Shown here one piece after another: positions 6,999-62,873 of a stretch of DNA of 64,000 nt; position 1 is the first letter of the stretch; each line of letters opens with the position of its first letter. The notes beneath the pieces are model-generated. The model was given only the letters and a program-made list of their open reading frames with translations, was not told the DNA's origin and did not search any database. The stretch spans positions 110,059-174,058 of the forward strand of contig CADADB010000004.1 in the NCBI GenBank assembly GCA_902786595.1, in the 5' to 3' direction. Source of the DNA: an uncultured Bacteroidota bacterium (lineage in GTDB: Bacteria; Bacteroidota; Bacteroidia; Bacteroidales; WCHB1-69). The position numbers and the translations under genes were made by a program.

Positions 6999-7096
6999 TA
7001 CTTATTGCAATTAAGATTGCATTTCATAATTATCCATAACAACATCATTTTTAATAAGATGTTTAACAGCAACTGCTAACTACTAACTGCTAACTA

Positions 7097-8722
7097 TCAC
7101 TCTACCACCACATCGTTGATGGGAACGGTGTCGATTTGGATGTGCAAGAAGCGAGGTTCGGATTTCACATCGGAATCGGGCCGATCAATGCTAGTGTAGT
7201 TTTTCGACCGCCATCCTCTTGGATCGGTCACAGCAACTTTGAAATCTTCGCCCGTGGTGAATCCTACCGGCAGACGCAACATGCAACGCACCGGCTCCCC
7301 ATCCTTGATGGCCGGTTTGCAGGCAGGCGCGGCACGGAAGGCCTGATTGATTTCCGCCATGATGGCATCAATCATCTGTTGCACAAGCGCATTCCGTGCT
7401 TCCTTATCTTCGGGAGCATCCTCTCCGAGATCAAGGTGCGCGACAGCCCATCCATCATTGCTATCTTTGCGGCCTTTGAAAGGCACCGTAAACACAACCT
7501 CTCCCTTCTTGCCAGCAACATCACCCCAGCTGACACAAGCCGTATCCAACTCCGTGAAGAGAACTCGTCCATCCTTCTCCACGATAAAACAGACCGTTAA
7601 AAGTCCAGACAGATTGTACTTTTTGGCCAATTCGGGGTACTTCATGCTACCGTAAAGGTTATCGACATACTGTTGGATGCCACCCGGGAACAGCGGCATC
7701 GAATCGGGATCCATGCAAACGGGTTCATCTATAACTTTTTCAACTTCCTCTTCCACAGCTACTTCCTCCGTTTTCGGATGACAGTTCACCAACAAGAGTC
7801 CGGCGATGATGGGGACAAGCGCGAGGAGCCACCACGCGGACAATCTGCGTTTTACCGGCTGGCTCATCATCAAAATACGCTTCTTGGTCAGCAAATGACG
7901 GAAACTGTTGCCCACGGGCACGAACTTGCCCACGCACAACTGCTTGTACAGCAGCTCTAAGTAATCGCGGCGCGAGGTTCCGCACGAGAGCACCGCCTCA
8001 TCGGCCAAATACTCGTGGACGCTGCTCAATTCCCTGGCGTACAAGTAAATGACGGGATTGAACCATTGCAGCACCCGCACCGCTTCCGTGAAGAGCAGAT
8101 CCCACGTGTGACGCTGGCGGATGTGCGTCCGCTCGTGACGCAGCACCTGCTGCAACTCGCTCTCTGTGAACACTTCCGGATTCACGAACACCGAGCGCAG
8201 GAACGAGAACGGAAGGTTGCCGTCGGGCTCGCCCAGCACCCGCACGCACATATCGCCCGTCGAAAGCTCATCCGACAGCACACTGCGCCGATAGTACCTG
8301 AAAGTCTTAAAAAGCTTGACAACCAGCAGAATAAAGGCCACCCCGCAACCGAGGACGTATCCATACCATATTATATCCTTAAAAGAAAATGTTTTGGCAG
8401 TTTCTGTCGTTCCCCTTGTCTCAGTTGTCATATTTGTCATATCTGCCGTTGATTCAACAGCCTCAGTTTTTGTTTCCCCAGCCACATCTACTTGAACAAC
8501 AGCTGGTTCCTGCGTCATCCCAAAATGTTGCGTATAAGGTTGCGCTACAGCGGTCACACGACTCGGCATCTCAAGAGAGACAAACGGCAGCACCAACGAA
8601 AGTGCCAATGTGCCAACAAGATAGAAACGGCGCAAGCGGAACAGGTTGCTCCTGCGCAAGGTGGCGGCATACAGCCCGAAAAAGAGGGCGATGGCGACGG
8701 CGGAAAAGAGAATCGTTTTCAT
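7097..8722 (-). CDS. M56 (BlaR1-type) membrane metallopeptidase with a C-terminal TonB domain
   Basis: 541 residues. Hydrophobic segments near residues 1-20, 32-50, 118-138 and about 290-310 surround a cytoplasmic zinc-peptidase domain containing LRHERTHIRQRH (HExxH) and EYLADEAVL, the family's third-ligand region. After the last membrane segment (WWLLALVPIIAGLLLVN) comes a periplasmic region with a TonB C-terminal-like domain (PLFPGGIQQYVDNLY, KYPELAKKYNLSGLLTVCFIVEKDG). In the BlaR1/MecR1 paradigm such peptidases sense a signal and inactivate the BlaI repressor encoded beside them; here the two genes are 2 bp apart. The ligand is unlikely to be a beta-lactam, since no penicillin-binding domain is present. 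The stop codon directly abuts a TTAGCAGTTAG repeat. Confidence 0.9.
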   Translation of the reverse strand: MKTILFSAVAIALFFGLYAATLRRSNLFRLRRFYLVGTLALSLVLPFVSLEMPSRVTAVAQPYTQHFGMTQEPAVVQVDVAGETKTEAVESTADMTNMTTETRGTTETAKTFSFKDIIWYGYVLGCGVAFILLVVKLFKTFRYYRRSVLSDELSTGDMCVRVLGEPDGNLPFSFLRSVFVNPEVFTESELQQVLRHERTHIRQRHTWDLLFTEAVRVLQWFNPVIYLYARELSSVHEYLADEAVLSCGTSRRDYLELLYKQLCVGKFVPVGNSFRHLLTKKRILMMSQPVKRRLSAWWLLALVPIIAGLLLVNCHPKTEEVAVEEEVEKVIDEPVCMDPDSMPLFPGGIQQYVDNLYGSMKYPELAKKYNLSGLLTVCFIVEKDGRVLFTELDTACVSWGDVAGKKGEVVFTVPFKGRKDSNDGWAVAHLDLGEDAPEDKEARNALVQQMIDAIMAEINQAFRAAPACKPAIKDGEPVRCMLRLPVGFTTGEDFKVAVTDPRGWRSKNYTSIDRPDSDVKSEPRFLHIQIDTVPINDVVVE

Positions 8723-8724
8723 GA

Positions 8725-9111
8725 CTATTCGGTTTTTGTGGGTGAATCATCTTGCGGAACGGCATCGATCATCCTGCGGATGTCGTCCAGCTCTTCCAAC
8801 GTAATATCCTGGTTGTTAGCGAAAAAGGAGACCATTGACTTGAACGAGTTGTCGAAGTAGTTGCGCACAAAATGCTGCATGAACTCTTCCGAGTACTGTT
8901 CCTTGCTCACCAATGGATAGTAGCGGTTCGACTTCCCGAAGGTCTCGTGCGACACGAACCCCTTCTTTTCGAGAATGCGCACCACGGTCAGCATGGTGTT
9001 GTAGGCCGGCTTCGGTTCCGGGAAATTGGCGATGATGTCGGCGGCGAATCCCTGTTTGATCTGCCACAGCACCTGCATCACCTGTTCTTCTGCTTTGGTT
9101 AATTCTTTCAT
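8725..9111 (-). CDS. blaI: BlaI/MecI/CopY family transcriptional repressor
   Basis: 128 residues, the normal length. It has the winged-helix DNA-binding region (LTKAEEQVMQVLWQIKQGF, PAYNTMLTVVRILEKKGFV) and the C-terminal dimerisation helix region (MVSFFANNQDITLEELDDIRRMI). The KSNRYYPLVSKEQY segment follows the wing, where BlaI proteins are cleaved by their M56 partner. It lies 2 bp upstream of the M56 gene in one operon. The operon promoter at 9314-9358 carries the putative operator shared with the TonB-dependent receptor. Confidence 0.93.
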   Translation of the reverse strand: MKELTKAEEQVMQVLWQIKQGFAADIIANFPEPKPAYNTMLTVVRILEKKGFVSHETFGKSNRYYPLVSKEQYSEEFMQHFVRNYFDNSFKSMVSFFANNQDITLEELDDIRRMIDAVPQDDSPTKTE

Positions 9112-9313
9112 ATCGTTATATTTTATTGGTTAATGTTCATCGTCACATTCATCGTTCATTTATCGCATCATCGTATCATCGCATCATCGTCATCCGTCCT
9201 ATGCGCTATCGCTCACCCTATGCTAACATAGGTCGGGCTTTCAGCCCTTTTTGAATTAGATTTATATTCATTCTTAATTCTTAATTTTTCATTCTTAATT
9301 GAAAACGGCGCGG
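9112..9313 (-). other. Long 5' leader of blaI with repeats and hairpins
   Basis: If transcription begins just downstream of the -7 box at 9321-9314, the blaI leader is nearly 200 nt. It contains degenerate CATCGCATCATCG repeats (9150-9192), CCTATG-CTAA-CATAGG (9217-9232), and GGGCT-TTC-AGCCC followed by TTTTT on the plus strand (9235-9252), which looks like a weak terminator for plus-strand transcripts. Reiterated TTCATTCTTAATT-type repeats lie at 9258-9300. No ORF is supported. Confidence 0.45.
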
Positions 9314-9358: not shown

Positions 9359-9421
9359 ATATATTGCATTCGTTGAGAAAAAAATATTTTTCGTAATTTC
9401 GCACCGCAAACCAAATCCGTT

Positions 9422-10645
9422 ATGAGAAAACTTATTATTGTCATATTCTACTGTCTGTCAACACTTTTCGCCACCGCCAATGACGGTGTCTTCTACGCTT
9501 CCGGCAACCAGCTGATACCAATTACCGAGACCGACATCAGCGTGAGGAAGGAGGTGTTGACCCTCAACCGGGTGGGCGACCACATCGAGGTGACTGTCTA
9601 TTACGAGTTCTTCAACCCCGTGGGCGAGAAAGAACTGCTGGTCGGGTTCGAGGCAGAGTCGCCTTACAACAGCAGTCTGGATCCTTTCAAGGTATTCCCG
9701 AGACATCCGCACATCCGCAACTTCAAGGTGGCGATGAACGGAGAACCGCTGACCTTTGAAATCGCCAATGTGCCCCTGAAATACTATGACCATGTCAAAG
9801 ATACCTTCCTGTCGAATCCGTATTTCAATAACGGGCACATAGAAACATGGGACAAACAACGGATTACAGACTCCATATACGCCTGGGGCGCGCCGGACCT
9901 GCCTACAGACTACGTCTATCACTTCAAAGCGAAATTCCGCCCAGGGCTAAACATCATCTACCACACTTACGACTTCGACCTTTCTTTCTCTATCGATGAG
10001 GAATTCTATTTTCCCTACGTGCTGACCGCTGCCAACCGCTGGGCCAACCACCAAATCGATGACTTCCTGTTGTTAGTCAATATGGGCGACCGCGAATCTT
10101 TCAGCATTGATCCGGATTTTTTTCAAAGTCCTGACGAATGGAGATTCCTCGGGAAAGGCAAAACCACGACATACTCTTCTTCATACCCTACGAAAAGGGA
10201 TATCCCTGTTTTCCACGTCCAAGAAGGCAGCCTCGCTTTCCGAAAGGCCAACTTCCACCCGGAAGGCGAATTGTATCTCACCAAAAGCAACACCATCCAT
10301 TACTCTTTCGGTGACCCTGACGACGCTCCTTCTTTTACAGAGACACTGGCAGAACAATATTATTCCTATTCTGATTTGCTGTCGGCCCTTCGACACGAAA
10401 TCACGAATTCGCTGATTATTCCATCCGACACCGACTACGAATACAACTACGACACCCTCGTCACCCCCGAGCAGCGCCGCATCCTCAAGAACCTACCTTT
10501 CGCCTATCGGGGCTACATCTTCAAAGACAAAGCATTACGAGACTATTTCGAATCCACCGACTGGTACCTGCCGAACCCGGAATACGACGGGAAGATGGAT
10601 GCTTTCAGCGCAGAGGAGAGGAAATGGGTGGAGTTTTGGAAATAA
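9422..10645 (+). CDS. Exported protein with a C-terminal YARHG domain
   Basis: 407 residues with a signal peptide (MRKLIIVIFYCLSTLFATAN). The body (residues about 25-310) is beta-rich and resembles DUF4424-type secreted proteins: FYASGNQLIPITETDISVRKEVL, then VYYEFFNPVGEKELLVGFEAE. The C-terminus carries a YARHG domain: LRHEI, AYRGYIFKDKALRDYFES and TDWYLPNPEYDG, ending in FSAEERKWVEFW. YARHG domains are extracellular and of unknown, possibly peptidoglycan- or surface-related function. No catalytic motif is visible. It diverges from the blaI operon. A weak -7 box (TAATTTCG) lies just upstream. Confidence 0.72.
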   Translation: MRKLIIVIFYCLSTLFATANDGVFYASGNQLIPITETDISVRKEVLTLNRVGDHIEVTVYYEFFNPVGEKELLVGFEAESPYNSSLDPFKVFPRHPHIRNFKVAMNGEPLTFEIANVPLKYYDHVKDTFLSNPYFNNGHIETWDKQRITDSIYAWGAPDLPTDYVYHFKAKFRPGLNIIYHTYDFDLSFSIDEEFYFPYVLTAANRWANHQIDDFLLLVNMGDRESFSIDPDFFQSPDEWRFLGKGKTTTYSSSYPTKRDIPVFHVQEGSLAFRKANFHPEGELYLTKSNTIHYSFGDPDDAPSFTETLAEQYYSYSDLLSALRHEITNSLIIPSDTDYEYNYDTLVTPEQRRILKNLPFAYRGYIFKDKALRDYFESTDWYLPNPEYDGKMDAFSAEERKWVEFWK

Positions 10646-10702
10646 CCCCCTAAACCTTTAACCTCCTAACCTCCTAACCTTCTAACCTTTTAACCCAACC
10701 AA
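10646..10702 (+). repeat. Degenerate CCTCCTAACCTT repeat filling the gap
   Basis: Directly after the TAA of the YARHG gene, the sequence is made of five or six imperfect copies of an 8-10 nt unit (CCTAAACCTTTAA, CCTCCTAA, CCTTCTAA, CCTTTTAA). It runs up to the next start codon with no other content. Confidence 0.6.
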
Positions 10703-11887: not shown

Positions 11888-11946
11888 TGACATGAGAGAT
11901 AAGAGGTTAAGATAATAAGAGGATAAGAAGAGGAACAAGGAGATAA

Positions 11947-11990: not shown

Positions 11991-12023
11991 TATTCGCAAC
12001 GTCTTAAGTCTTAAGTCTCAAGT

Positions 12024-13660: not shown

Positions 13661-14428
13661 TTACTTCGACACATTAAACAAGCAGGTGAAACGCAGACCC
13701 ACATTTATGGGTATGGTCATATCATGAAGTGCCTCGTTGCTGATCGCGTATGGGACGTAATGGGAGTAAGATCCGACACTTTTTTTCGGTACTTCTTTAA
13801 AGATCCCATAATCCACGTATGCGCCAAGATAGAATCGGGCTTTAGGCTGGACAAGTTCATCAAAAGAGGTAAATGTCCCAAAAGAACCGCCCAACTCAAA
13901 ACGGGTATAAAGTTGGAAATCGCGATTATAACGATACTGATGAATGTCCTCATAATCCCAAACCTCAGAGTTATCGTTCAACGCGGGTCCTATGACAGCG
14001 CCGTTTCCAAAGACACTTAAAGAAGGCGCCACGCCTGCCTTGAAATAGAATTTGCCAAACTCCCCGCCTAACATCACCGGGAAGTTGAAGCTCATATTGT
14101 GCAAAACCTCCATCATCCCTTTTTCTATTGTATTATAATGCAAAAAACCAATCGTTGTGATATCCTCCGTGGACATATTTGCCATAATGGTATTATCATA
14201 CTCAACCCCAACACTGAAAGTGAGATGATTGTGATGGAGCTGGTAGCCCAGACCGATATTATCACTTAAGCCCCCGAGACACGCGACGGGCAAATACGGT
14301 TTCAAACGAACGGTGTTCGAATAAGCGGAGCCACGACTTAGGGAAATAAAATGCCGTGTGGGATGTTGTGCATTGATACTTCCTATAGATATCATGCAAC
14401 AAATCAACAAAATAATGCTTTTTTTCAT
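13661..14428 (-). CDS. Outer-membrane beta-barrel-like exported protein, function unknown
   Basis: 255 residues with a signal peptide (MKKSIILLICCMISIGSINAQ). The rest alternates hydrophobic and polar residues as in small outer-membrane barrels (HHNHLTFSVGVEYDN, FYFKAGVAPSLSVFG, RFYLGAYVDYGIF) and ends IPINVGLRFTCLFNV, with aromatic residues in the last strand as expected for barrel insertion. No specific family is recognised. It stands as a single gene between gltX and the ygiQ-like gene, all on the minus strand. Confidence 0.7.
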   Translation of the reverse strand: MKKSIILLICCMISIGSINAQHPTRHFISLSRGSAYSNTVRLKPYLPVACLGGLSDNIGLGYQLHHNHLTFSVGVEYDNTIMANMSTEDITTIGFLHYNTIEKGMMEVLHNMSFNFPVMLGGEFGKFYFKAGVAPSLSVFGNGAVIGPALNDNSEVWDYEDIHQYRYNRDFQLYTRFELGGSFGTFTSFDELVQPKARFYLGAYVDYGIFKEVPKKSVGSYSHYVPYAISNEALHDMTIPINVGLRFTCLFNVSK

Positions 14429-16266: not shown

Positions 16267-16288
16267 AGTCACTTGTCTTTTCAGACGG

Positions 16289-16296
16289 CAAAAATA
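16289..16296 (-). promoter_or_regulatory. Promoter of the ygiQ-like gene (-7 box)
   Basis: TATTTTTG followed by C on the minus strand, about 23 nt upstream of the ATG at 16266. It excludes the upstream ATG at 16299. Confidence 0.6.
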
Positions 16297-16306
16297 CATT
16301 TTTAAT

Positions 16307-16333
16307 GGTTATGGGTTATGGGTTATGGGTTAT
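16307..16333. repeat. Tandem GGTTATG repeat
   Basis: Four consecutive copies of the heptamer GGTTATG end in TATTG, upstream of the ygiQ promoter. It is one of several short intergenic tandem repeats in this window. Confidence 0.7.
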
Positions 16334-16458
16334 TGAAGCAGGATGGGCGTTGGATATCAAGCATTATCTATTAGCCAAGAACCAGTAAATGAAGACAATA
16401 AACAAAAAGCATAACATGTAAAAAAAAAGTGTATTTTTGCCGCCTGAATTTTGACAGT

Positions 16459-16486
16459 GTAGAAACGTTTCATGAAACGTCTCTAC
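16459..16486. repeat. 28-bp palindromic repeat, copy 1
   Basis: GTAGAAACGTTTC/ATGAAACGTCTCTAC forms a near-perfect palindrome starting GTAG and ending CTAC, extended by GACA/TGTC on the outside. It ends 5 bp before the tRNA. Related copies lie at 21943-21970, 42637-42664 and 47509-47536. Confidence 0.8.
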
Positions 16487-16491
16487 TGTCG

Positions 16492-16565
16492 GGTCCCATA
16501 GCTCAGTTGGTTAGAGCATCTGACTCATAATCAGAGGGTCCAAGGTTCGAGCCCTTGTGGGACCA
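16492..16565 (+). tRNA. tRNA with CAU anticodon (elongator Met or Ile2)
   Basis: A complete cloverleaf: acceptor GGTCCCA/TGGGACC with discriminator A, D-arm GCTC...GAGC, anticodon stem TCTGA/TCAGA with loop CTCATAA (anticodon CAT), variable GGGTC, and T-arm CAAGG-TTCGAGC-CCTTG. The 3' CCA is not encoded. The CAU anticodon serves either elongator tRNA-Met or the tRNA-Ile that is modified to lysidine; I cannot separate them by eye. It is not an initiator by its ordinary acceptor pairing. AT-rich AATTCATAATGCATAATTC repeats follow (16569-16605). Confidence 0.95.
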
Positions 16566-16667
16566 CTTTTAATTCATAATGCATAATTCATAATTCATAA
16601 TTTTTTTGGCAATCGGACGTTTAGTTACGAAGGATTGATTGCGAATAATACGCTAACGAAAAAAAAG

Positions 16668-16675
16668 TATATTTG
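16668..16675 (+). promoter_or_regulatory. Promoter of the alpha/beta hydrolase gene (-7 box)
   Basis: TATATTTG followed by C, 17 nt upstream of the ATG at 16693. Confidence 0.6.
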
Positions 16676-16692
16676 CATCATGATTCGTGAAT

Positions 16693-19212: not shown

Positions 19213-19359
19213 CGTATGACGGGAGACATGAGACATACGTGATTAACGAGGATTTATACAGCGAAAATCAACGAAATAAAACACAAAGGATAATCCACCG
19301 AAATACCTTGAACAAACGAAAACGCCCAAAGTCTTAAGTCTTACGTCTAACGTCTCAGA
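19213..19359 (+). repeat. Degenerate GACATGAGACATACG and CTTAAGTCTTACGTCTAACG repeats
   Basis: The gap begins at the TGA stop of the thioesterase gene with GACGTATGACGGGAGACATG and ends just before the next ATG with CTTAAGTCTTACGTCTAACG. The same words recur after mmdB (24629 onwards) and before the gltX stop (12000-12024). No gene is seen. Confidence 0.5.
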
Positions 19360-20109
19360 ATGATCAGCAAAAACCGCATATCCCAAATCCGTAAGTTACA
19401 CGCCAAGAAATTCCGCGATGAGAGCGGACTTTTTTTGGTGGAGGGTTATAAAAGCGTGGAGATGCTTTGCGCCTCCGATTTTGAAGTGGAGGAGATTTTC
19501 GCCACTGAAAACGCTCTGACGGACAATGCTGCGTGGTTAAGTTCCCTCTCCCCCACCCTTGTCACCGCCGAGGAGATGTCGCGCATCAGCACTATGCAGA
19601 CTCCGCCGGAACTGCTTGCAATTGCACTTCAGCGGCAATCCCTTCCCGACATCCCCACCGACCAGTCCATACTTGCTCTTGACCACATCTCGGACCCCGG
19701 CAACCTCGGCACCATCATCCGTACTGCCGATTGGTTTGATATCCAGCATGTTGTATGTTCCCCCGACTGCGTGGAGTTCTACAACCCGAAAGTCATTCAG
19801 GCGACTATGGGTTCCTTCACACACATACACGTACACCGTCGTTCACTTCCAGAATTTCTAAAACAGGAAAGCTGTCGTCGTCACATTCTCGGCACCTTCC
19901 TCGATGGTGAAGATATCCGCCAGTTCAAATTCAACCGCAACGAAATCGTGGTCATCGGCAACGAGTCGAACGGCATCTCAGAGGAGGTGGCCAACGCCGT
20001 CACGCACCGCATCACCATTCCCACCGCCGCCCAAGGCCGCGACACCGCCGAGTCCCTCAACGCTGCCATCGCCGCCGCCGTAGTGATGTACCGGATGGCG
20101 GGGTGTTAG
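19360..20109 (+). CDS. RNA methyltransferase, TrmH/SpoU family
   Basis: 249 residues. The N-terminal RNA-binding region is RKLHAKKFRDESGLFLVEGYKSVEM. The C-terminal SPOUT domain contains the three family motifs: LDHISDPGNLGTIIRTADWF (motif 1), IVVIGNESNGISEEV (motif 2) and ITIPTAAQGRDTAESLNAA (motif 3), which form the knotted SAM site. It probably 2'-O-methylates a ribose in rRNA or tRNA; the target cannot be fixed. Its stop codon TAG is itself part of a TTAGCTGTTAGC repeat. Confidence 0.93.
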   Translation: MISKNRISQIRKLHAKKFRDESGLFLVEGYKSVEMLCASDFEVEEIFATENALTDNAAWLSSLSPTLVTAEEMSRISTMQTPPELLAIALQRQSLPDIPTDQSILALDHISDPGNLGTIIRTADWFDIQHVVCSPDCVEFYNPKVIQATMGSFTHIHVHRRSLPEFLKQESCRRHILGTFLDGEDIRQFKFNRNEIVVIGNESNGISEEVANAVTHRITIPTAAQGRDTAESLNAAIAAAVVMYRMAGC

Positions 20110-20272
20110 CTGTTAGCTTTTGGCTGTTAGCTTTTGGCTATTAACTATTGGCTATTGGCTGTTTTAGATAGCTATGGCTAGTAACTGTGTGCCTTTTAAG
20201 GAGGCTGACTATAACCATAACTATAACTGCCGATTGTAAATCCTGAATCGCAAACCGAAAATCCCGCAAAAA
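20107..20272 (+). repeat. TTAGCTGTTAGCTTTTGGCTG repeat array
   Basis: Directly from the TAG stop of the methyltransferase gene, imperfect copies of a 14-16 nt unit (GTTAGCTTTTGGCT, GCTATTAACTATTG) continue for about 70 bp, followed by TAACCATAACTATAAC. Similar units occur at 7058-7096, 27623-27680, 48547-48612, 51874-51906 and 58043-58118. No gene is present. Confidence 0.6.
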
Positions 20273-21942: not shown

Positions 21943-21970
21943 GTAGAGACGTGCCATGGTGCGTCTCTAC
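21943..21970. repeat. 28-bp palindromic repeat, copy 2
   Basis: GTAGAGACGTGCCATGG followed by TGCGTCTCTAC, one mismatch from a perfect palindrome, lies between mmdA and the gamma-subunit gene inside the operon. In RNA it would form a stem of about 13 bp and might reduce read-through or stabilise the mmdA end. Confidence 0.85.
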
Positions 21971-24631: not shown

Positions 24632-24658
24632 GACGTGAGACGTAAGATTTAAGATAAC

Positions 24659-27622: not shown

Positions 27623-27753
27623 TGGCTGTTGGCTATTGGCTTTGGGCTATTAACTATAACAATAACTATGACTTTAAACTTAACTGTGGCTTTTAAACAT
27701 CATCGTCTCATCGCATCATCGTCTCATCGCATCATCGTCTCATCGTTTCATCG
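27623..27753 (-). repeat. Two short repeat arrays between ung and the nuclease gene
   Basis: 27625-27680 consists of TTGGCTGTTGGCTATTGGCT-type units. 27700-27758 contains three copies of a 16-mer (CATCGTCTCATCGCAT) ending in CATCGTTTCATCGTC. The second type recurs near 9150-9192. There is no spacing pattern of a CRISPR array. Confidence 0.65.
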
Positions 27754-42200: not shown

Positions 42201-42618
42201 GGGCAGTGTTTCTCCTGCCGGCGCCACCACCGTTGACGAAGGCACCACCTTCACCGCAACCGCCACCGCTAATCCCGACCACCACTTCGTGGCTTGGATG
42301 AACGGCAACTCGCAGGTGAGCACCGCCAACCCGTACACCTTCACCGTAACTGGTGACATTACCTTGACCGCCACCTTCGCGTATAATGACGGTATCGAGA
42401 ACTTCGATTTGTCCAAGGTCAACGTCTATTCTACCAACAGCACGATTGTCGTTCGCGGAGCCGAGAATCAAGACCTCGCCGTCTATGACATGAACGGTCG
42501 CTGTATCTACAAGCTTGTCAACGCCAACGAGATTGAAGAAATCACCGTGGTTAGTGCCGGCGTCTATCTTGTAAGAGTCAGCAACGGCATCACAAAGAAA
42601 GTGGTCGTGTTGAAATAA
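36289..42618 (+). CDS. Giant multidomain secreted adhesin-like protein with T9SS type A sorting domain
   Basis: 2109 residues. After a signal peptide (1-22) comes a beta-sandwich domain (to about 204). Six fibronectin type III domains (starting near 205, 461, 703, 958, 1198 and 1436; typical TYTITGLDANTTYTFGVE) alternate with five MAM/choice-of-anchor-J or cleaved-adhesin-like domains (near 294, 545, 786, 1284, 1516; typical FTEGFED...YIDDVTLEE). A GEVED domain lies near 1046-1195 (WVDWNNSLSFEGNE). Four divergent InlB B-repeats follow (1685-2030, MGSVSPAG), and a C-terminal sorting domain ends in GVYLVRVSNGITKKVVVLK. The C-terminus should direct export by T9SS and surface attachment. No protease catalytic domain is present, so adhesion or binding is inferred. 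Confidence 0.93.
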   Translation: MQKILRTLMLAVLLLPFALHAQNTLTVANGTNTNSYVPVYGLYVDDYVRCQTVYPANEIASSALAYSMTGGTITSLTYYLSTPATASWGDAQFVVNLLEVPYTTLTSFVDMTDATTVYTGSLDATQSTMEITFTTPYTYQGGNLLIEIYSTAVGTYKSAYFYGINASGASWQGYNSTSWTNITGAARDFIPKTTFTFTGGSEITCRPITELSIDATETTSSSLTLTWTDSLNTDATYTVYNMADNTVLQSGITDHTYTITGLDANTTYTFGVEVNCSASDVSSITAVSGRTACSILSSLPFTEGFEDYPSGDYQMPFCWSRYISASTASATYPYSYSGNSHSGSRSLYFYGTTGDAYPDTMVAIMPELDVTLYPMNANRLVFWAKMGTSSNSKNVYVGTLTDPTDPSTFTLVDSVLVSGSVYTKFSIPMADATGAYVAMVVFKGTGSMYIDDVTLEEMPSCLEVSNLTVSGTTSNSITLSWVDSTNTDATYTIYDMSDNSLIGTSNTHTYTAENLDANTVYTFGVQANCSAGDAPLTTVSGRTACTAFAAPFTWTFEDMATAATPECWTKVGSGTVAVQSGTSNSHESSRYLRFSGSTSNLVVLPETENEINTLQLRFWTRPESFTNANCGNFSVGYVTDASDASSFVEVSNYVYSDFSAYDEKTVIFLNAPAGARLAMRHNAGSTSWYWYVDDVTIEDLPSCPPVSGMAIDNITANSVTLSWNGTASSYSIYDMSDNTLLTSGISQTTYTVTGLTANTSYVFGVRANCSETDSSSIETIGGRTACDLVTTLPFTEDFETVPAGSYQMPYCWYRYSSAATSAATYPYSYSTTSYSHGGSRVLYFYGTTSSSYSDTMAAILPELDVTVHPMNTTRITFWARMGAATNAKFVYVGTMTDPADPTTLTVIDSVLINGATHTKYIVPMTNANATASYAALVVYKGTGSIYIDDLTLEEIPSCPDVTGLTLVSNTATTATISWDATTAQDYEVEVRQNNVALTDVTITVTENTAEIDGLSVDNDYQIFVRAICGTVSGSWSDALNLHIGYCLPNPTSRDGQGITSVSFGGMTNTTHPTAAGFGDYTSMVGTVPVGTVATVDITYATGYSYGTIIWVDWNNSLSFEGNEVVYVGESSSTNPTTLTATFNIPATTELGSYRMRIIGADSYYDSYTGSIEAAADADPCATYTWGVAEDYTLTVGEAPDCMPVTGLTDLNTTANSITLSWSGNAASYSIYDMSDTTLIISGITDTTYTIEGLNATSSYTFGVVANCSPTLSSEMVTATFTTSCGAVAIPFVESFESTSTTLGCWSLYNIATNTGLTSTNPYNGSLAFVFAYNTNPPQYLFSPELSGTENGLKVSFMYRIMSTNYPESFQIGYSTTTNDLEAYTWGVEQTNLLNTSYQEYSEVLPAGTKFVSIKYTANDMYYLFIDDVTFDYPPTCAPAANLTASAVSENSITISWTGDAASYDVYNGSTFVANVTSNSYTFTGLSSSTNYTFGVQAICSATDTASMATINTMTECGDITTLPYSEGFEAGIGCWTTVNGSNDGQPWSITDCAGLENVNPHGGNYVASSWSWSSTAMHANAWLISPKFVLPNSAEDLTFTWWDVTNSGWPDSYSVVLSTTTADTAAFTTVVYPYTAATGAWTQHSIDLSSYAGQSVYLAFHHVDYDANYLLIDDIELSQGGFTPPTPDTLTVTFAVNSAAMGTTIPAPGTYQYLDGDTVFFSATPNTGYQFIGWEWVTGSIVDTLAANYISAYFPASSMMSYGSMTLTALFEAGNPDSTTVTYAVNDATMGTTSPAPGTYTVYVGNSIVATAIPNDGYELSAWMFDTYVGTTLINSDTILSSDSGFGNPMTFGTLPQSYADYGATITITAVFEASSTPVTQYTVTLNSADAAMGSVSPAGVTTVDEGSSFTATATANTGYHFVAWMSGNTQVSTANPYTFTVNENVTLTATFEADPTPQYTVTLVTADAAMGSVSPAGATTVDEGTTFTATATANPDHHFVAWMNGNSQVSTANPYTFTVTGDITLTATFAYNDGIENFDLSKVNVYSTNSTIVVRGAENQDLAVYDMNGRCIYKLVNANEIEEITVVSAGVYLVRVSNGITKKVVVLK

Positions 42619-48093: not shown

Positions 48094-48549
48094 ATGAAAT
48101 ACACGCAATTAGGAAACACCGGCATTGAGGTCAGCCGCATCTGCGTCGGCTGCATGTCGTACGGGAAGCCCTCGGAGGACTTCCACCTGTGGACTCTCAA
48201 CCAGGAGGAGACCACGAAGATGATCAAGCACGCCCTCGACCTCGGGGTGAACTTCTTCGACACCGCCAACGGCTATTCGCACGGCACCAGCGAGGAGTTC
48301 TTAGGCAAAGCGCTGAAAGACCTCGGTGTCGCCCGTGTGGCGGAGGTGGCGGAGCGTCTCGGTGTGACGATGACGGAAGTCGCGTTGGCCTGGCTGCTGA
48401 AGCGGGGGGTCGCCGCACCCATCGTGGGAGCCACGAAAGTGCCGCACTTCAATGACGCGGTCCGCGCTCTGGATCTCGACCTCAGCGACGAAGACGCTGC
48501 CTACCTCGAAGAGCCCTACAAGGCGCACGAAGTGGTGGGAGCGCTGTGA
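48094..48549 (+). CDS. Aldo/keto reductase with in-frame central deletion, probably inactive
   Basis: 151 residues instead of about 320. The N-terminus is intact up to SEEFLGKALKDLG (residues 1-80, with D and Y of FFDTANGYSHG). It then joins directly to VARVAEVAERLGVTMTEVALAWLL and the C-terminal cofactor part PIVGATKVPHFNDAVRALDL. The missing roughly 170 residues include the catalytic Lys and His. The frame stays open across the join, so a clean in-frame deletion (or assembly error) rather than a random one is suggested. It is the last gene of the reductase operon. Its stop begins a TGAGCCTTCGGCTGTTG repeat. Confidence 0.75.
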   Translation: MKYTQLGNTGIEVSRICVGCMSYGKPSEDFHLWTLNQEETTKMIKHALDLGVNFFDTANGYSHGTSEEFLGKALKDLGVARVAEVAERLGVTMTEVALAWLLKRGVAAPIVGATKVPHFNDAVRALDLDLSDEDAAYLEEPYKAHEVVGAL

Positions 48550-48660
48550 GCCTTCGGCTGTTGGTAAGCTTCGCTGTTAGTTAGCTTCGCTGTTGATTAG
48601 CCTGCGGCTGTTAATGACTTCGTGTTAACATGAAATAATCAACACGAAGTCATCAGTCTT
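48547..48660 (+). repeat. GCCTTCGGCTGTTG array with a 13-bp-arm hairpin
   Basis: Starting at the TGA stop, about four imperfect units of GTTAGCTTCGCTGTT type follow. ATGACTTCGTGTT (48614-48626) and AACACGAAGTCAT (48641-48653) form a perfect inverted repeat. The 15-mer ACTTCGTGTTAACAT at 48617-48631 is found again at 58104 and 62841. Confidence 0.7.
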
Positions 48661-49430: not shown

Positions 49431-50051
49431 ATGACCTACTTGGAGTTCAGGGAGCAGTGGCACGGGATGGGATGTTTCAACGTTTATCAGATCCGTGCGT
49501 GGGAGCCGGGATTCGACCGAAGCAACCTCACACGCTGGGTGAAGCGGGGCTATTTGTCGAAACTGCGGCAGGACTGGTATGCCTTCAGCGACCTGAAGGG
49601 CACTCCCGAGATGGCGCGTTATATTGCGCAGCGCATTTACACGCCGTCGTACATCAGCCTGCACTACGCCCTGTCGTTCTACGGCATCATTCCCGAAGCG
49701 GTGACCGACATCACCTGCGTCACCTCCAACCGCACCACGGCCTACCATAACGACTTCGGCCGTTTCAGCTACCAGACCGTCAAGCCCGATCTTTTCTTCG
49801 GCTTCCGCCAGATGCCCGTTTCGCCGCAGGGCAGCTACCTGCTGGCTTTACCCGAAAAGGCCATCCTCGACCTGCTGTACCTTTACCCGCAATACAACAC
49901 CGCCGAGACCTTGTTGGAGCTGCGCTTCGACGAATGGTGGATGCGGGAGGAACTGGACAAGGATCGACTGGCGGCTTACGCGACGCAAAGCGGCAACAAG
50001 TCGCTGCAAGAACGAATACAATTGTTGATGAAAACCTATACAGATGATTGA
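49431..50051 (+). CDS. abiEi: AbiEi-type antitoxin/transcriptional regulator
   Basis: 206 residues with an N-terminal winged-helix region (YLEFREQWHGMGCFNVYQI, LTRWVKRGYLSKLRQDWYAF) and the family core IYTPSYISLHYALSFYGIIPEAVTDITCVTS. The C-terminal region has LLALPEKAILDLLYLYPQYN. In type IV TA systems AbiEi counteracts the AbiEii toxin without binding it and represses the operon. It overlaps the toxin gene by 8 bp. Confidence 0.9.
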   Translation: MTYLEFREQWHGMGCFNVYQIRAWEPGFDRSNLTRWVKRGYLSKLRQDWYAFSDLKGTPEMARYIAQRIYTPSYISLHYALSFYGIIPEAVTDITCVTSNRTTAYHNDFGRFSYQTVKPDLFFGFRQMPVSPQGSYLLALPEKAILDLLYLYPQYNTAETLLELRFDEWWMREELDKDRLAAYATQSGNKSLQERIQLLMKTYTDD

Positions 50052-51342: not shown

Positions 51343-51873
51343 ATGGACAAAAACGAACTCTTAGCAGCCATGTCGGACAGTTATGCGAAACTGAACGAGC
51401 AAATCGGCAAAATGACAGATGACGAACTGAACGCGACTTTCCAGTTCGCCAATGACCAAAAAAAATGCGGTGCGCGATGGATTTACGACCAGTGCGCCCG
51501 CGACCTCCTCATACACCTTTATGAATGGCAGGTGCTGATGCGCGAATTTGTGAACAACATCCGCGAAGGCCACCAAAAGGACTATCTGCCCGACGAATAT
51601 CGCAAAAACTACCACGAGATGGACAAGATGCTGGTGGAAAAACACCAGAACACCTCGTTTCAGGAGGCACAGCGGCTTCTGGAGCAGACCCATGACGAAA
51701 TGATTCAGCTGGCAGACAGCTTTTCCGAGGAGGAACTTTTCATCAAAGGCCACTACAAGTGCACCTACACCACCGATATGGCCGCTTACTTCACGAGTGT
51801 CACCACAAGTCCCTACAAGCAGGCCCTGAAGATGTTGAAGACGCACCAAAAGAAGCTGAAAACTTCGTGTTGA
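51343..51873 (+). CDS. ClbS/DfsB family four-helix-bundle protein
   Basis: 176 residues with the family pattern: KNELLAAMSDSYAKLNEQIGKMTDDEL, then WIYDQCARDLLIHLYEWQVLMREFV and HKKDYLPDEYRK-like residues, and a late AAYFTSVTTSPYKQALKMLKTH. ClbS from colibactin clusters hydrolyses the toxin's cyclopropane; most family members have no known substrate. No biosynthetic cluster is nearby, so resistance is not implied. It is monocistronic. Confidence 0.85.
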   Translation: MDKNELLAAMSDSYAKLNEQIGKMTDDELNATFQFANDQKKCGARWIYDQCARDLLIHLYEWQVLMREFVNNIREGHQKDYLPDEYRKNYHEMDKMLVEKHQNTSFQEAQRLLEQTHDEMIQLADSFSEEELFIKGHYKCTYTTDMAAYFTSVTTSPYKQALKMLKTHQKKLKTSC

Positions 51874-51906
51874 TGAGCCTGCGGCTGTTGGTTAGCCTTC
51901 GGCTGT
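51874..51906 (+). repeat. TGAGCCTGCGGCTGTTGG repeat at a stop codon
   Basis: Two units, TGAGCCTGCGGCTGTTGG and TTAGCCTTCGGCTGTTAC, begin directly after the ClbS-like stop codon. It is the same family as at 48547 and 62804. Confidence 0.65.
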
Positions 51907-51928
51907 TACGATAGTCTTCCAAATTCTC

Positions 51929-54587: not shown

Positions 54588-55721
54588 ATGAAACACCCCC
54601 TTCTGATTTTCGCCGCCGCCATCGTGTTAATGGTTGGCTGCAACAAGACAACAAAAACAGACAAAGATATGAACACTTTGACATTCAACGAGAAACAGGC
54701 GGCGGCGATGTCGGCCATCGCCTGCTACGAGGCGCAGGGCGACCAAACGTCGTTAGCCACCGCCATCAACGAGGGTTTCGACGCGGGGCTTACCGCCAAC
54801 CAGATCAAGGAGGCCCTCTCGCAACTCTACGCCTACACGGGATTTCCACGTTCACTCAACGCATTAGGCACCCTGCAGAAAGTGATGAAGCAACGCGGTG
54901 AGGTGGAGATCGGCACCGAATCCACTCCCCTACCCTCCAACTACGATGCCCTGAAACAAGGCACCGAAGTGCAAACCAAACTGTCGGGACAGCCCTTCGA
55001 CTACAAGTTCTGTCCCGCCGAGGACTACTACCTCAAGGCGCACCTCTTCGGCGACATCTTCGCCCGCGACCTGCTCACCCACGCCGACCGCGAGTTATTG
55101 ACTGTCAGCGCCTTGGCTGGTCTGGAGGGCGTGGAACCCCAGCTGGCCGCCCACGTGCGCGGTGCACGGAACATGGGTCTGACCGACGCCCAGCTGCTCG
55201 CCATCCCGAAGGTGTTGCAGGAGCGTGTGGGCAAAATGGAGGCGCACCGTGTCGCCGTGGCCATTCAGCAGTTGGGCATCAGCGATTCAGTTAACGACCA
55301 CCTCGCCAGCAATATATACGTCCAGGACTACGTTGATTTGAAGTCGAATTGGCGGCGGGGCGAGCCGAACACCGCCTACGCGCAGTACTTCATCGGCAAC
55401 AGCTACCTTGCGCCCTACGGCGGTGGCATGGTCAACGTGTCCTTCGAGCCGGGCTGCCGCAACAACTGGCACATCCACCACAAGCAGGTGCAGGTGCTGG
55501 TGTGTGTCTATGGCCGTGGCTGGTACCAGGAATGGGGCAAACCCGCTGTCAAGTTGGAGCCCGGCGTGATCATCGAGATCCCCGAAGGCGTGAAGCACTG
55601 GCACGGCGCCGCCAAAGACAGCTGGATGCAGCACCTCACCTACCACAAGGACGTGCAGGAAGGGGCCAGCAACGAATGGCTGGAACCTGTCACCGATGAT
55701 CAATACAGCGCTTTGAAATAA
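54588..55721 (+). CDS. Carboxymuconolactone decarboxylase-like/cupin fusion lipoprotein
   Basis: 377 residues. Lipobox LMVGCNK follows the signal. Two carboxymuconolactone-decarboxylase-like (AhpD-fold) helical domains follow: first TAINEGFDAGLTANQIKEAL, SQLYAYTGFP, then RDLLTHADRELLTVSALAGLEG and LAAHVRGARNMGLTDAQL. The thiol pair normally present in AhpD is not seen. A C-terminal cupin has the metal ligands WHIHHKQVQV, then IPEGVKHWHGA. It probably acts together with the upstream amidohydrolase gene (24 bp apart). Confidence 0.9.
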   Translation: MKHPLLIFAAAIVLMVGCNKTTKTDKDMNTLTFNEKQAAAMSAIACYEAQGDQTSLATAINEGFDAGLTANQIKEALSQLYAYTGFPRSLNALGTLQKVMKQRGEVEIGTESTPLPSNYDALKQGTEVQTKLSGQPFDYKFCPAEDYYLKAHLFGDIFARDLLTHADRELLTVSALAGLEGVEPQLAAHVRGARNMGLTDAQLLAIPKVLQERVGKMEAHRVAVAIQQLGISDSVNDHLASNIYVQDYVDLKSNWRRGEPNTAYAQYFIGNSYLAPYGGGMVNVSFEPGCRNNWHIHHKQVQVLVCVYGRGWYQEWGKPAVKLEPGVIIEIPEGVKHWHGAAKDSWMQHLTYHKDVQEGASNEWLEPVTDDQYSALK

Positions 55722-55768
55722 CCAACATTCACTCATCAACATTTACTCACCAACATTCACTTAAAGAT

Positions 55769-56935: not shown

Positions 56936-58045
56936 ATGAAAAAACTCATCCTCCTCGCCCTTGCGGCACTGACACTGGCTGCCTGCGGCAACAAGCAAGA
57001 AACAAAAAACAACGAGAATATGAAACAGGAATTGACCCTCACGCAGGAGTGAGACAAGGTATTCCCCCTCAGCGACAAAGTAAACCACCGCAAGGTGACG
57101 TTTGAAACACAGTACGGCCTGACCTTGGCCGCCGACCTTTACACGCCCGTAGGGGCGAATAATGATTCGCCCACAGGTCTCCCTGCTTTAGCCGTGAGCG
57201 GACCTTTCGGTGCCGTCAAGGAACAAAGCAGTGGCCTCTACGCTATGAAGATGGCGGAGCGCGGCTTCGTAGCACTGGCCTTCGACCCGTCCTATACCGG
57301 TGAAAGCAGCGGCGAGCCCCGTCGCACGGCCTCGCCCGACATCAACACCGAGGACTTCATGGCTGCCGTTGATTTCCTGTCGCAGTTAGAGAATGTGGAT
57401 CCCGAGCGCATCGGCATCATCGGTATCTGCGGCTGGGGTGGCATCGCCCTGAATGCCGCCGCTGCCGACCCGCGCATCAAGGCTACCGTGGCCAGCACGA
57501 TGTACGACATGACCCGCATCAGCGGCAACGGCTATTACGACAGTGACAACAACGAGGAAGCCCGTCACGCTGCCCGCGAAGCAATGGGCAAACAGCGTCT
57601 CGCCGACCCGATGGCGATGGCCGGCGGCGTCATCGACCCGCTGCCTGATGAGGTTCCGCAGTTTGTGAAGGACTACCACGCCTATTACAAAACCCCGCGC
57701 GGCTACCACGTGCGCAGCGGCAACAGCAACGACGGTTGGCGCATCATCGGCACACAGGCATACGCCAACGCACGTTTTCTCTACTACATCAACGAAATCC
57801 GCTCCGCTGTCCTCGTGATGCACGGCGAGAAGGCCCACAGCCGCTACTTCGGAGAGGCCGCCTACCATTATATGGTGGATGGCAAGGCCGAGGGTTACAA
57901 CTTCATCGGCAAACCGAATCCCAATCCTGACAACAAGCAGCTGCTCATCATCCCCGGCGCCACCCACTGCGACCTCTACGACGGCGGCGATGGCAACTAC
58001 ATCCCGTGGGACACGCTGGCGGAGTTTTTCGGGAAGAATATGTAG
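56936..58045 (+). pseudogene. Alpha/beta hydrolase lipoprotein interrupted by an in-frame stop (TGA)
   Basis: From ATG 56936 the frame reads MKKLILLALAALTLAACGNK (lipoprotein signal), then stops at TGA 57050-57052 after LTLTQE. The same frame continues without a shift as DKVFPLSDKVNHRKVTFETQ and a complete alpha/beta hydrolase with GIIGICGWGGIALNAAAAD (nucleophile elbow with Cys), as in dienelactone-hydrolase-like proteins, and the late histidine in IIPGATHCDLYDGGD. A single base change (for example TGG to TGA) explains it. A GTG at 57095 could restart translation without the signal. It could also be a sequencing error. Confidence 0.75.
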
Positions 58046-60000: not shown

Positions 60001-60049
60001 TTTCCCATTTTTCCAACGAATAGAAACGACAATAAAACAAGTTCAAGAT

Positions 60050-60889: not shown

Positions 60890-60900
60890 CCATGTTTATA

Positions 60901-61043
60901 TTCACTTTTTTAAAAGTGAAAAAATATTATTATTTCGCTTTTGCAAAAGTGATTTTTTATTTTTGCATTTTTAATAGTGAACTGATATGATACATAAAGA
61001 TTATCAACAACTTGAGAATCAATATTTCGCAAAAAACGCGTGA
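60901..61043 (+). promoter_or_regulatory. Orphan promoter with strong palindromes and an 18-codon relic ORF
   Basis: TTCACTTTTTTAAAAGTGAA (60901-60920) and CGCTTTTGCAAAAGTG (60937-60952) are strong palindromes just upstream of a consensus -7 box TATTTTTG (60958-60965). A half-site ATAGTGAA follows. ATG 60987 opens MIHKDYQQLENQYFAKNA, then TGA at 61041-61043, beyond which repeats begin. This is the control region of an autoregulated gene whose body is gone, or a very short peptide gene. Confidence 0.5.
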
Positions 61044-61125
61044 TAATCTGCGTTAATCTGCGTGGTCTGCGGGACAATTATATGCTCGCTGAACTCGCAG
61101 AAATACGCAGACAGGATATTTACAA
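61044..61125 (+). repeat. TAATCTGCG direct repeats with an inverted CGCAGA copy
   Basis: TAATCTGCGT-TAATCTGCGTGG-TCTGCGGG (61044-61076) is followed by CGCAGAAATACGCAGA (about 61099-61114) in inverse orientation. The unit recurs at 51278-51296. Confidence 0.6.
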
Positions 61126-61174
61126 GATTCAAGGGGATAATTCAGAAATTTAATAATCGAAATAAATCTTAAAA

Positions 61175-62116
61175 ATGGAAATCAAAGCAATAAAATTCCG
61201 CAAAGAGGGTTTCTACACCCAACCTTTCGTCATGGGCGGCGAAGAAGGCCCCGACAAATTCGACCGCAACATCCGCTATCGCGGCAGCTTGCAAAACTAC
61301 CTCATTGACACCGGCAGCGAAGTGATTCTGATGGATACAGGTCTCCCCGCCGGCACGCCCGAGGAGGCTCCTGACGAGAACTCGTTGGCCTTCACCGGCA
61401 AGGACATCTGCAGCTATATGGAGGCCTTCGCGGCCCTCGGCTACAAGCCCGAGCAGGTGACCAAGATCCTGCTCACCCACAAACACGCCGACCACAGCGG
61501 CGAGCTGAAAAGCTTCCCCAACGCCAAGGTCTATGTCAATGCCGACGAAATGGACGCCGCTGAGCTCCAAGGACTTACAAATCTCGTCCCCGTCAGCTTC
61601 ACCGACGGCCCGTATTACAACTTCCCCGACAGTCAGAAAATCCACGACGGCATCTACCTCATCAAGGCCAAGGGTCACACCAAGGGCAACAGTATCATCG
61701 TGGTGGAGAACGACGGCTTATTCTATATGCTTCACGGCGACATCACTTATGTTGACGAAGCGTTGTATGAGAACAAACTCTCCGTGGTTTTCGACGACCT
61801 ATCCGCCGCCCGCGAGACGCAGGACCGCATCCGCGAGTTCATCCGCAACCATCCCACCGTCTATTGCGGCACCCACACCCCGCAGGGCTACGAGAACCTG
61901 GAGGCCAAGCGCGTGATGGACCTCGACCACCCCGTACCGACAGTCTTGGCCGAGGTGGATTTCTCCAAACAGCAGGCCTCCGGCAAGTACGTCTGCTCCA
62001 TCTGCGGCTACGTCTATGATCCCGCCGAGCACGACGGCGTGGCCTTCGAGGACCTGCCCGACGACTGGAAGTGCCCGAGATGCAGGCAGGGGAAGGAGAA
62101 GTTCAACAGGGCGTAA
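61175..62116 (+). CDS. MBL-fold metallo-hydrolase with C-terminal rubredoxin domain
   Basis: 313 residues. The metallo-beta-lactamase motif [10 protein letters not shown] (HxHxDH at residues 102-107) and the later [11 protein letters not shown] and YCGTHTPQG complete the metal site. The last 50 residues are rubredoxin: [17 protein letters not shown] (Cys 274, 277) and [13 protein letters not shown] (Cys 300, 303), which binds one iron. In flavodiiron-type systems rubredoxin gives electrons to oxygen- or NO-reducing MBL proteins, but no flavodoxin domain is present here. The unusual fusion suggests redox-linked function; the natural substrate is unknown. Confidence 0.9.
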
Positions 62117-62158
62117 AGGTGTGTACAAGAGGTTCAAGGACTATCCAATAAAAACCGG

Positions 62159-62857
62159 ATGAATATGGAATACAAAACCTTAAACAATGGACTGAAGATG
62201 CCGATGGTCGGCCTTGGGGTCTATAACATCCCCGAAAAAGAGACGCAAAGGGTGGTGGAAGACGCCTTGTCGGTGGGCTACCGCAGCATTGACACGGCCG
62301 CCATGTACGAAAACGAGAAAGGCGTAGGCGACGCGGTTCGGGCTTGCAACGTTCCACGCGAAGGGCTGTTCAAGGCCATCGGGGTGTCGAACTTCTATCC
62401 TAACACCTTCCCGATGATTGTGAAGGACACCAAGATCATGCCCGTTGTGAACCAATGCGAGGCCCACGTGCTCTACCAGCAGCGGAAGATGAGGGAGTAC
62501 CTGAAACCTTACGATGTTGCCTTGGAGGCTTGGAGTCCGTTGGCGGAAGGCCGAAGCAGCATCTTCAAGGACAAGACGTTGGTGGGTATCGGCGAGAAAT
62601 ACGGCAAGACTTCCGCACAAATCGCCTTGAAATTCCTCGTTCAGAACGACATCATCATCATTCCCAAGACCACGCACAAGGAAAGGATGGTGGAGAACAT
62701 CAGCCTCTTTGACTTCACGCTCACAGACGACGATCTCGCCGCAATCCGGAGGTTGGACACCGGCCGCAACGTGACAGGCTGGCCGTCGGATGCGCTCCGA
62801 TATGAGCCTGCGTCCGTTGATTGGCCTTCGGCTGTTAATTACTTCGTGTTAACATGA
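62159..62857 (+). CDS. Aldo/keto reductase with in-frame internal deletion and repeat-derived C-terminus
   Basis: 232 residues instead of about 275-280. The N-terminus is normal (MPMVGLGVYNIPE, SIDTAAMYENEKGVGDAVRA with catalytic D and Y). After VPREGLF it jumps to KAIGVSNFYPN, so about 45-60 residues are missing, including catalytic Lys and His. The C-terminal cofactor region is intact (IIIPKTTHKERM, FTLTDDDLAAIRRLDTGRN). The last 17 residues (EPASVDWPSAVNYFVLT) are encoded by GAGCCTGCG...GGCCTTCGGCTG repeat sequence. Start ATG 62159 or 62165. Probably catalytically dead. Confidence 0.75.
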   Translation: MNMEYKTLNNGLKMPMVGLGVYNIPEKETQRVVEDALSVGYRSIDTAAMYENEKGVGDAVRACNVPREGLFKAIGVSNFYPNTFPMIVKDTKIMPVVNQCEAHVLYQQRKMREYLKPYDVALEAWSPLAEGRSSIFKDKTLVGIGEKYGKTSAQIALKFLVQNDIIIIPKTTHKERMVENISLFDFTLTDDDLAAIRRLDTGRNVTGWPSDALRYEPASVDWPSAVNYFVLT

Positions 62858-62873
62858 AGTAATCAACATGAAG
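62804..62873 (+). repeat. GAGCCTGCG/GGCCTTCGGCTG/ATTACTTCGTG repeat overlapping the reductase 3' end
   Basis: The family of 48547 and 51874 covers the last 17 codons of the reductase gene and continues past its TGA. ATTACTTC (62838-62845) and GAAGTAAT (62856-62863) are inverted around the shared 15-mer ACTTCGTGTTAACAT (62841-62855). Confidence 0.65.

Follow-up and report, generated by a model that had tools for sequence, protein, structure and literature searches.

Degenerate heptamer arrays between the genes of an uncultured Bacteroidales bacterium and the direction in which they face

The gaps between genes in a 64,000-nt stretch of DNA from an uncultured Bacteroidota bacterium (Bacteroidales, WCHB1-69; contig CADADB010000004.1, positions 110,059 to 174,058; this whole stretch is the window below) contain many short tandem repeats, in which degenerate arrays of a 7-bp unit dominate. 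A preliminary description had drawn attention to degenerate direct repeats that begin at stop codons at ten places in the window. That observation is real and its extent is larger than was noted, and what the places share is the heptamer period, not single words. The best explanation, which we hold at a probability of roughly 0.6, is that the arrays (of heptamers, less often of 8-, 14-, 16- or 18-bp units) are driven by slippage and filtered at gene ends. Arrays of this kind have been called STRR or long simple sequence repeats; here they are dense and made of many word families.

A heptamer period in the gaps between genes

The window belongs to a 2.84-Mb draft genome of 40 contigs (G000). 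Judged by its glutamyl-tRNA synthetase, the nearest named relatives are ruminant Bacteroidales metagenome assemblies, among them RUG083 and RGIG6723 (98% identical) and RGIG2805 (97%). Counts for G000 refer to a sample of 464 kb, made up of the window and 20 stretches of 20 kb, with 226 gaps of 30–600 nt. Genes were called with our own codon-usage script, so that start positions are approximate; 55 were called in the window.

Self-match in the G000 gaps is 0.351 at a lag of 7, against 0.279 in shuffled gaps (z 26), with harmonics at 14, 21 and 28 and a weaker signal at lag 8 (z 11). Coding pieces (n = 228, unshuffled) have no such peak, matching at 0.240 for lag 7 and 0.239 for lag 8. Counted as segments, period 7 is found 136 times where 1.9 are expected and period 8 is found 19 times where 2.7 are expected, and periods 5 and 9 are absent. 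A degenerate tandem array of a 7- or 8-bp unit occurs in 104 of the 226 gaps, against 0.7 expected; one 50-kb stretch of E. coli K-12, used as a control, had arrays in 0 of 21 gaps. The location is intergenic: of 531 genes, three have a period-7 array within their final 90 nt, and none has one in its middle. Self-match at lag 7 peaks in the 21 bases after stop codons (0.41–0.45), and the stop codon already has a raised value (0.356). In 73 loci of named relatives there is another peak, at period 11 (33 segments against 1.0), and G000 is almost without it (2 against 0.3).

The words themselves are diverse. The G000 list holds 133 arrays, with units that include TTRGCTN, GGTTATN, GACGTAA, TAATTGA, GAATTAA, GTGATTA, AAATCGC and the octamer CGATGAGA, and its 120 heptamer arrays fall into 56 consensus classes (108 for random words), the commonest of which occurs 11 times against 2.7. 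Data were also pooled over seven sets with 406 arrays, part of the stretches having been picked for matches to TTRGCTN. Over these sets, 2.7 of the 7 unit columns are variable, against 3.6 at random (260 arrays), and identity between units drops with their distance along the array, from 0.824 through 0.794 and 0.756 to 0.712 (151 arrays). TTRGCTN was considered as a privileged word and rejected: within the order it occurs in at least 35 of 295 genomes, but a reversed control pattern is present in at least 15, and other heptamers thus behave alike. The reversed pattern is frequent in G060, G175 and G196, of the same order (up to 39 on one strand among the matches listed), and other heptamer families are thus common there. 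The TTRGCTN family also lies right after a stop codon on a megaplasmid of the betaproteobacterium Mycetohabitans (L240:1983-2060) and on a plasmid of the cyanobacterium Pseudanabaena (L239:18677-18853).

Direct repeats were recovered at or close to the stop codon at the places singled out earlier. When the stretches were cut out and scored at periods 6–20 against 1000 dinucleotide shuffles, no shuffle reached the best score at 7058, 10646, 20107, 24632, 48547, 51874, 58043 or 62804; two loci were weak, 19213 (18 of 1000) and 11888 (40 of 1000). The exact word ACTTCGTGTTAACAT does recur at 48617, 58104 and 62841, with no further copy in the draft genome. The rest of the word list needed correction: GACGTGAGACG is present at 24632 alone, with a looser relative at 19213, TGAGCCTTCGGCTG has a single copy at 48547, and TTAGCTTCGCTGTTG is found at 48581 and 58086. 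That the arrays begin at stop codons is true in part, as 15 of the 70 stop-adjacent arrays in G000 start within the stop codon and 26 no more than 5 bases after it, while 21 start upstream inside the gene and 8 later than 5 bases. Coverage had been put at mostly the whole gap; the median is 30% of an array-bearing gap, and at least 80% is covered in only 8 of 106 (G000). The view that this is not CRISPR was borne out, since the units of 7–18 bp run head to tail and are spacer-free, unlike the near-identical repeats of about 25–40 bp with unique spacers in a CRISPR array; cas genes were not searched for. Searched against Rfam 15 at the gathering score, the window matches only tRNA, and the arrays match no known RNA family.

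Comparison of relatives shows considerable turnover. The distance between the last sense codons of the SDH and GltX genes is 142 nt in the window, 157 in L034, 162 in L035 (with another family) and 2 in L062, the flanking proteins being 98–99% identical in all three; in the more distant L072 it is 677 nt. The array after the SDH stop (11894..11934) has 7 units in L034 and none in L062, and the array on the GltX side has one unit fewer in L034 than in the window. The gap after the gene at 48094 measures 156 bp in the window and 752 bp in G028, where the repeat family called TTCG below runs to dozens of units, with flanks 99 and 100% identical over the best matching segment. Further gaps also differ, between flanks that are 61–100% identical (these lengths were measured between matched segments). 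The sister gaps of near-identical genes thus differ in unit number, in family or in having no array. Rather than lacking both repeats and polymorphism, they proved polymorphic, although a few arrays are almost unchanged. The replication slippage suggested in the preliminary description gains support here, as the differences between orthologous gaps amount to whole units or to hundreds of bases and adjacent units are more similar than far ones; the templated process suggested beside it is conceivable. Slippage and array replacement are well supported, by comparison rather than by direct observation.

The direction of arrays relative to genes

An array is called G-form here when it is G-rich on the strand considered and C-form when it is C-rich, and arrays with equal G and C are unclassified. 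In the pooled data 43 of the 406 arrays, which span the gap or have equal G and C, were left out of the direction counts, leaving 363. Stretches of 5 kb or less were also excluded (nine in all: 4 of 77 named loci, leaving 73, and 5 of 60 other stretches). G000 and G028 are related and the pooled counts are therefore partly dependent, but the polarity is significant in each alone.

Close to genes, the G-rich strand runs 5' to 3' from the nearest gene into the gap in 207 of 229 arrays lying within 15 nt, and it points into the gap in 294 of all 363. This holds significantly for every gene arrangement in the pooled sets (++ 135/162, -- 99/121, +- 29/37, -+ 31/43). In G000, the top strand is G-rich in 58 of 71 arrays of left gap halves and C-rich in 43 of 50 of right halves (arrays with unequal G and C; p 5e-14), and the ++, -- and -+ gaps are each significant alone, the +- gaps not (p 0.21). 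The rule was repeated in G028, in the 73 named loci of relatives and, near genes, in G023 with G014 and in G029 with G006; it is also obeyed by 20 of 26 arrays from other families of the order. At more than 15 nt from genes it was absent in G023 with G014 (5 of 14), and it was absent in the divergent gaps of distant relatives taken alone (5 of 9). Consecutive arrays (98 pairs) read G then C in 62 cases, C then G in one, C then C in 19 and G then G in 10, with six pairs having a member with equal G and C. Among 111 long arrays, four switch from G to C in phase and none from C to G.

The reach of the rule differs between the two ends of genes. On the stop side, G-form and C-form arrays number 139:25 at 0–7 nt, 9:5 at 8–15 nt, 8:9 at 16–40 nt and 9:5 at 41–80 nt, whereas on the start side the polarity persists past 80 nt (13:3). 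A rule limited to arrays that touch the stop, set against such a long start-side reach, favours a role of the transcript. As a translation-free test of the polarity, borders formed by tRNA genes are less telling: 60 tRNA loci from two related genomes (30 among those listed of 44, 30 of 45) yielded 14 arrays, mixed in direction and with too few of them independent. On the Pseudanabaena plasmid three gaps appear to read G then C with related words, a judgement made by eye and narrow in one case. A quadruplex motif (four runs of at least three G) occurs in 3 of the 406 arrays, and the polarity stands without those three (293 of 360).

Neither stop codons nor start codons have a C, and this polarity would therefore be favoured by selection acting for stops after genes and against stray starts before them. 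Stop-adjacent arrays whose G-form is richer in stops are in G-form in 99 of 106 cases, and start-side arrays whose G-form is richer in starts are in C-form in 107 of 121. The direction rule is real and partly known already; the codons explain much of it, not all.

Candidate origins of the arrays

In the explanation that we prefer, strand slippage or unequal recombination would alter copy number in 7-bp steps, new arrays would be seeded by the copying of existing ones, and arrays could overrun old spacer DNA up to a gene. Selection at gene ends would then retain harmless versions: at 3' ends, orientations with in-frame stops, and at 5' ends, G-poor orientations without stray ATG, GTG or TTG. 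The arrays themselves would require no function.

Several observations weigh against this explanation. Part of the polarity escapes the codon argument, as 24 of 33 stop-adjacent arrays are in G-form even where the C-form is richer in stops, 18 of 21 with equal stops follow the rule, and so do 12 of 16 without a stop in the G-form (p 0.08, short of significance) and, on the start side, 16 of 20 whose G-form has no start codon. Pairs with neither array at a gene edge read G then C in 12 cases and C then G in one, and such an order away from gene edges favours a DNA-level cause. Simple slippage leaves unexplained why the same families turn up again at sites that are not linked and in unrelated lineages. 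Local clustering of heptamer families was not found: same-family pairs within 20 kb number 32 of 346 in G000 (31.5 permuted) and 17 of 251 in G028 (29.2 permuted), with no sign of seeding by neighbours. Some arrays have hardly changed: that of the SpoU-mmdA gap is identical in L034, with an internal contraction in L062, and both arrays of the gap 16267-16692 are almost identical in L034 and L035. All these comparisons of turnover are between species.

Another means by which the direction rule could arise is strand-biased growth at DNA 3' ends, where, at a broken gap or a stalled nascent 3' end, the strand leaving the gene would be extended with G-rich heptamers copied from other arrays, much like recombination-based telomere growth, until two border arrays meet in mid-gap. 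This would account for the G strand entering the gap in every gene arrangement, for the G-then-C order in 62 of 63 opposite-form pairs (12 of 13 off gene edges) and for in-phase switches that go only from G to C; gap DNA outside arrays, moreover, is nearly without skew beside stops in ++ and -- gaps. However, the fading of the polarity more than 7 nt from the stop codon is not expected of a purely DNA-level process, the two null counts given above (5/14 and 5/9) do not fit it, readable indels in conserved arrays are internal and not at the gap-side end, and +- gaps carry a weak skew of the same sign outside arrays (0.11, -0.06). We regard this model as unlikely. It is a little less likely still that such a process builds and rebuilds intergenic DNA in several bacterial phyla, as a chromosomal counterpart of recombination-based telomere growth; if it did, G-rich heptamers would be added outward from gene borders and a gap would tend to be the fusion of two G-rich tails, whatever the direction of the genes. 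The arrays might instead be retained as translational barriers, a 7-nt unit with a stop closing three frames in 21 nt. This doubtful alternative, which the preliminary description had raised as stop-codon-providing spacers, is in keeping with the closure of all three sense frames in 139 of 196 stop-adjacent arrays, with 0.78 sense stops per 7 nt against 0.38 antisense (64 arrays) and with the 21 of 70 arrays in G000 that begin within the gene. Yet the same sense letters, when shuffled, already yield 0.66 per 7 nt; units of 8 nt would be equally suited and are much rarer; arrays are also frequent before starts and inside gaps; and stop-free GGTTATN and TTGGCTN arrays still follow stop codons. 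The printed GGGAATC arrays (PMC4692102) obey the same rule with a unit that, judged from the word, has no stops.

It is also conceivable, though improbable, that a G-rich and a C-rich arm from the same gap form an RNA hairpin by which the mRNA is ended or protected. Six stretches chosen by eye do fold better than their shuffles (z -2.6 to -5.2), and of 471 odd-length cores in the TTCG family 410 have fully paired arms, where shuffles give 39, but same-family pairs within a gap are not significantly enriched (4/21, 5/30). Inverted arms were rejected as a general architecture, since only 12 of 133 arrays have in their gap an inverted partner so good that at most 1 of 40 random gaps equals it, and about 3 such arrays are expected. 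Least probable among the functional accounts is that the arrays are binding sites of an RNA- or DNA-binding protein that reads heptamers, as proposed for TAACTGA repeats (PMC4679880). The restriction of variation to few unit positions and the recurrence of the degenerate word TTRGCTD in distant lineages are consistent with it; 56 word classes in 120 arrays of one genome, some swapped or lost between close relatives, are hard to reconcile with it. As to chance or assembly artefact, the window and its relatives are indeed draft metagenome assemblies, but the shuffle controls and the presence of arrays in the independent assembly series RUG, RGIG and UBA and on a finished cyanobacterial plasmid refute this reading.

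Features of the window and known repeat systems

The arrays and related elements of the window are as follows (coordinates in the window; strand given where one was assigned).

7071..7096, minus: heptamer array AACTGCT, 3.6 copies, right after the stop of the minus-strand M56 gene; 0 of 1000 shuffles
9162..9189: octamer array ATCGCATC between divergent genes
9267..9300: heptamer array TTAATTC, in the same divergent gap as 9162..9189
10643..10696, plus: octamer array TAACCTCC between the YARHG and SDH genes, running on from the stop codon; L034 and L035 carry other families
11894..11934, plus: degenerate 8/16-bp array GATAAGAG after the SDH stop, weak alone (40 of 1000 shuffles)
12001..12023, minus: heptamer array GTCTTAA (sense TTAAGAC) after the GltX stop
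16302..16333: heptamer array TTATGGG, on the left side of a gap between divergent genes
16570..16602: heptamer array TAATTCA, immediately 3' of tRNA-Met
19329..19355, plus: heptamer array AAGTCTT, immediately before the SpoU start
20104..20163, plus: heptamer array TTRGCTD, overlapping the SpoU stop codon; unchanged in L034, contracted in L062
24629..24647, plus: short heptamer array TAAGACG at the OAD-beta stop; 0 of 1000 shuffles
27623..27657: heptamer array TGGCTAT, the G-rich arm on the left of its gap
27700..27753: octamer array TCATCGTC, the C-rich arm on the right, sharing its gap with 27623..27657
48547..48617, plus: 16/18-bp TTCG-family array, units with 3–4 bp hairpins
48615..48653: inverted repeat TGACTTCGTGTT ... 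AACACGAAGTCA at the end of the 48547 TTCG array
51868..51907, plus: 18-bp TTCG-family array, overlapping the DUF1706 stop
55721..55761, plus: 14-bp array CAACATTCACTCAT that fills the space between two co-directional genes
56988..57012: heptamer array GCAACAA
58043..58118, plus: 14/16-bp TTCG-family array, beginning in the stop codon
59347..59419: 14-bp array AACATGAAATAACT / AACACGAAGACACC, a C-rich form of the TTCG family
62804..62864, plus: two TTCG-family units, together with an inverted repeat around GTTAAC, missed by Tandem Repeats Finder

The TTCG family stands apart from the heptamers by its units of 14, 16 and 18 bp, each with a linker (GTTGGTT, for example) and a core in which the arms pair around TTC. 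Of 486 cores in all, the arms are AGCC/GGCT in 132, AGC/GCT in 106, AC/GT in 103 and AT/AT in 56, and with so few arm types the cores offer few independent compensatory changes. Among the matches listed, the family lies mainly in G028 contig C14 at 46–66 kb, a region that corresponds to this part of the window, and it has other sites in C7, C9, C10, C17 and C18 of the same genome. Carriage by phages or plasmids was considered and rejected, as neither collection matches at E 0.001. A palindrome around GTTAAC ends TTCG arrays (window 62838-62864), and in G028 (L159:10606-10710 and 14100-14200) the same junction links G-form and C-form arms. Gene order around the arrays in G028 and G032 is largely that of the window, with some genes missing. 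Genes from 45–63 kb of the window are found in other neighbourhoods at L164 and L165 (G007), L167 and L168 (G036) and L169 (G009); the pair 49431-50044 has different neighbours in G007 and G036 (for example beside 56391 and 57095), as does 51343 in G036 and G009. Some rearrangement has thus taken place in this array-rich region. The aldo/keto reductase at 48094-48549 has 151 aa as compared with 322 aa in G028 (L159:14785-15750), and the window copy seems to be without an internal part.

Palindromes of another kind, GTAGAGACG and CGTCTCTAC around a variable palindromic core, occur at 21943 and 42637 of the window and at L114:13849 and L041:11547; together with relatives of GTAGGGGCG they number 17 in the G000 sample. 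They resemble the GTAG-tagged REP elements reported in PMC3733652 in being small and dispersed and in the GTAG end, and unlike the arrays they are not tandem heptamers. Two large genes may also be mentioned. One, on the minus strand at 24689-27622, encodes a 977-aa protein of the PD-(D/E)XK nuclease superfamily, possibly the AddB-like half of a recombination nuclease, and would be of interest if array growth is recombination-driven; the other is an open reading frame of 2109 aa at 36289-42618.

The arrays belong to a known kind of repeat in a dense, many-worded form. STRR sequences, which Mazel is said to have described in heterocystous cyanobacteria in 1990, and the long simple sequence repeats reportedly treated by Mrazek in 2007 are both said to be intergenic and dominated by heptanucleotides, with slippage proposed as their source. 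Here, too, 7-nt units dominate, lie between genes and vary in number between relatives.

Work by Rehm and colleagues in 2015 (PMC4692102) deals with quadruplex-forming heptamers, GGGAATC in Xanthomonas and GGGGA(C/T)T in Nostoc PCC 7120, whose function it leaves open; the G-rich strand is the coding one downstream of stops and the non-coding one upstream of starts, mostly within 50 bp. As described there, those heptamers and our arrays are alike in their 7-nt unit, intergenic location, G strand directed away from the nearest open reading frame and length variation between related species. They are likewise under-represented between divergent genes (here arrays occur in 12 of 40 divergent and 11 of 32 convergent against 83 of 159 co-directional gaps of G000). 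The paper has one quadruplex-forming family per genome, whereas here there are many families; because nearly all our arrays are without such a motif, the direction rule does not require the quadruplex reading given in print.

MacGregor's 2015 paper (PMC4679880) describes TAACTGA arrays in marine Beggiatoaceae, Cyanobacteria and five Bacteroidetes, and other heptamers in Bacteroidetes gaps. By that account these are, like ours, intergenic 7-nt tandems, some over stop codons, with 7-nt indels between relatives and a patchy distribution. They differ in consisting of a single word that lies mostly just upstream of starts in the main genome, while two adjacent TAACTGA units occur here in 1 of 406 arrays. 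PMC4853749 and PMC6749651 touch on heptamer repeats briefly. Among titles and opening lines of abstracts, with few subscription journals, we recognised no paper on such arrays in rumen Bacteroidales and none on a direction rule across many families.

Dozens of unrelated words share a period of 7, and one direction rule holds in the Bacteroidales and, according to published work, also in Xanthomonas and Nostoc, which points to a general process that shapes the gaps of bacterial genomes. The arrays offer a test bed, workable from sequence alone, for mutational as opposed to selective origin. They also alter the last codons of some genes and the lengths of spacers between close species.

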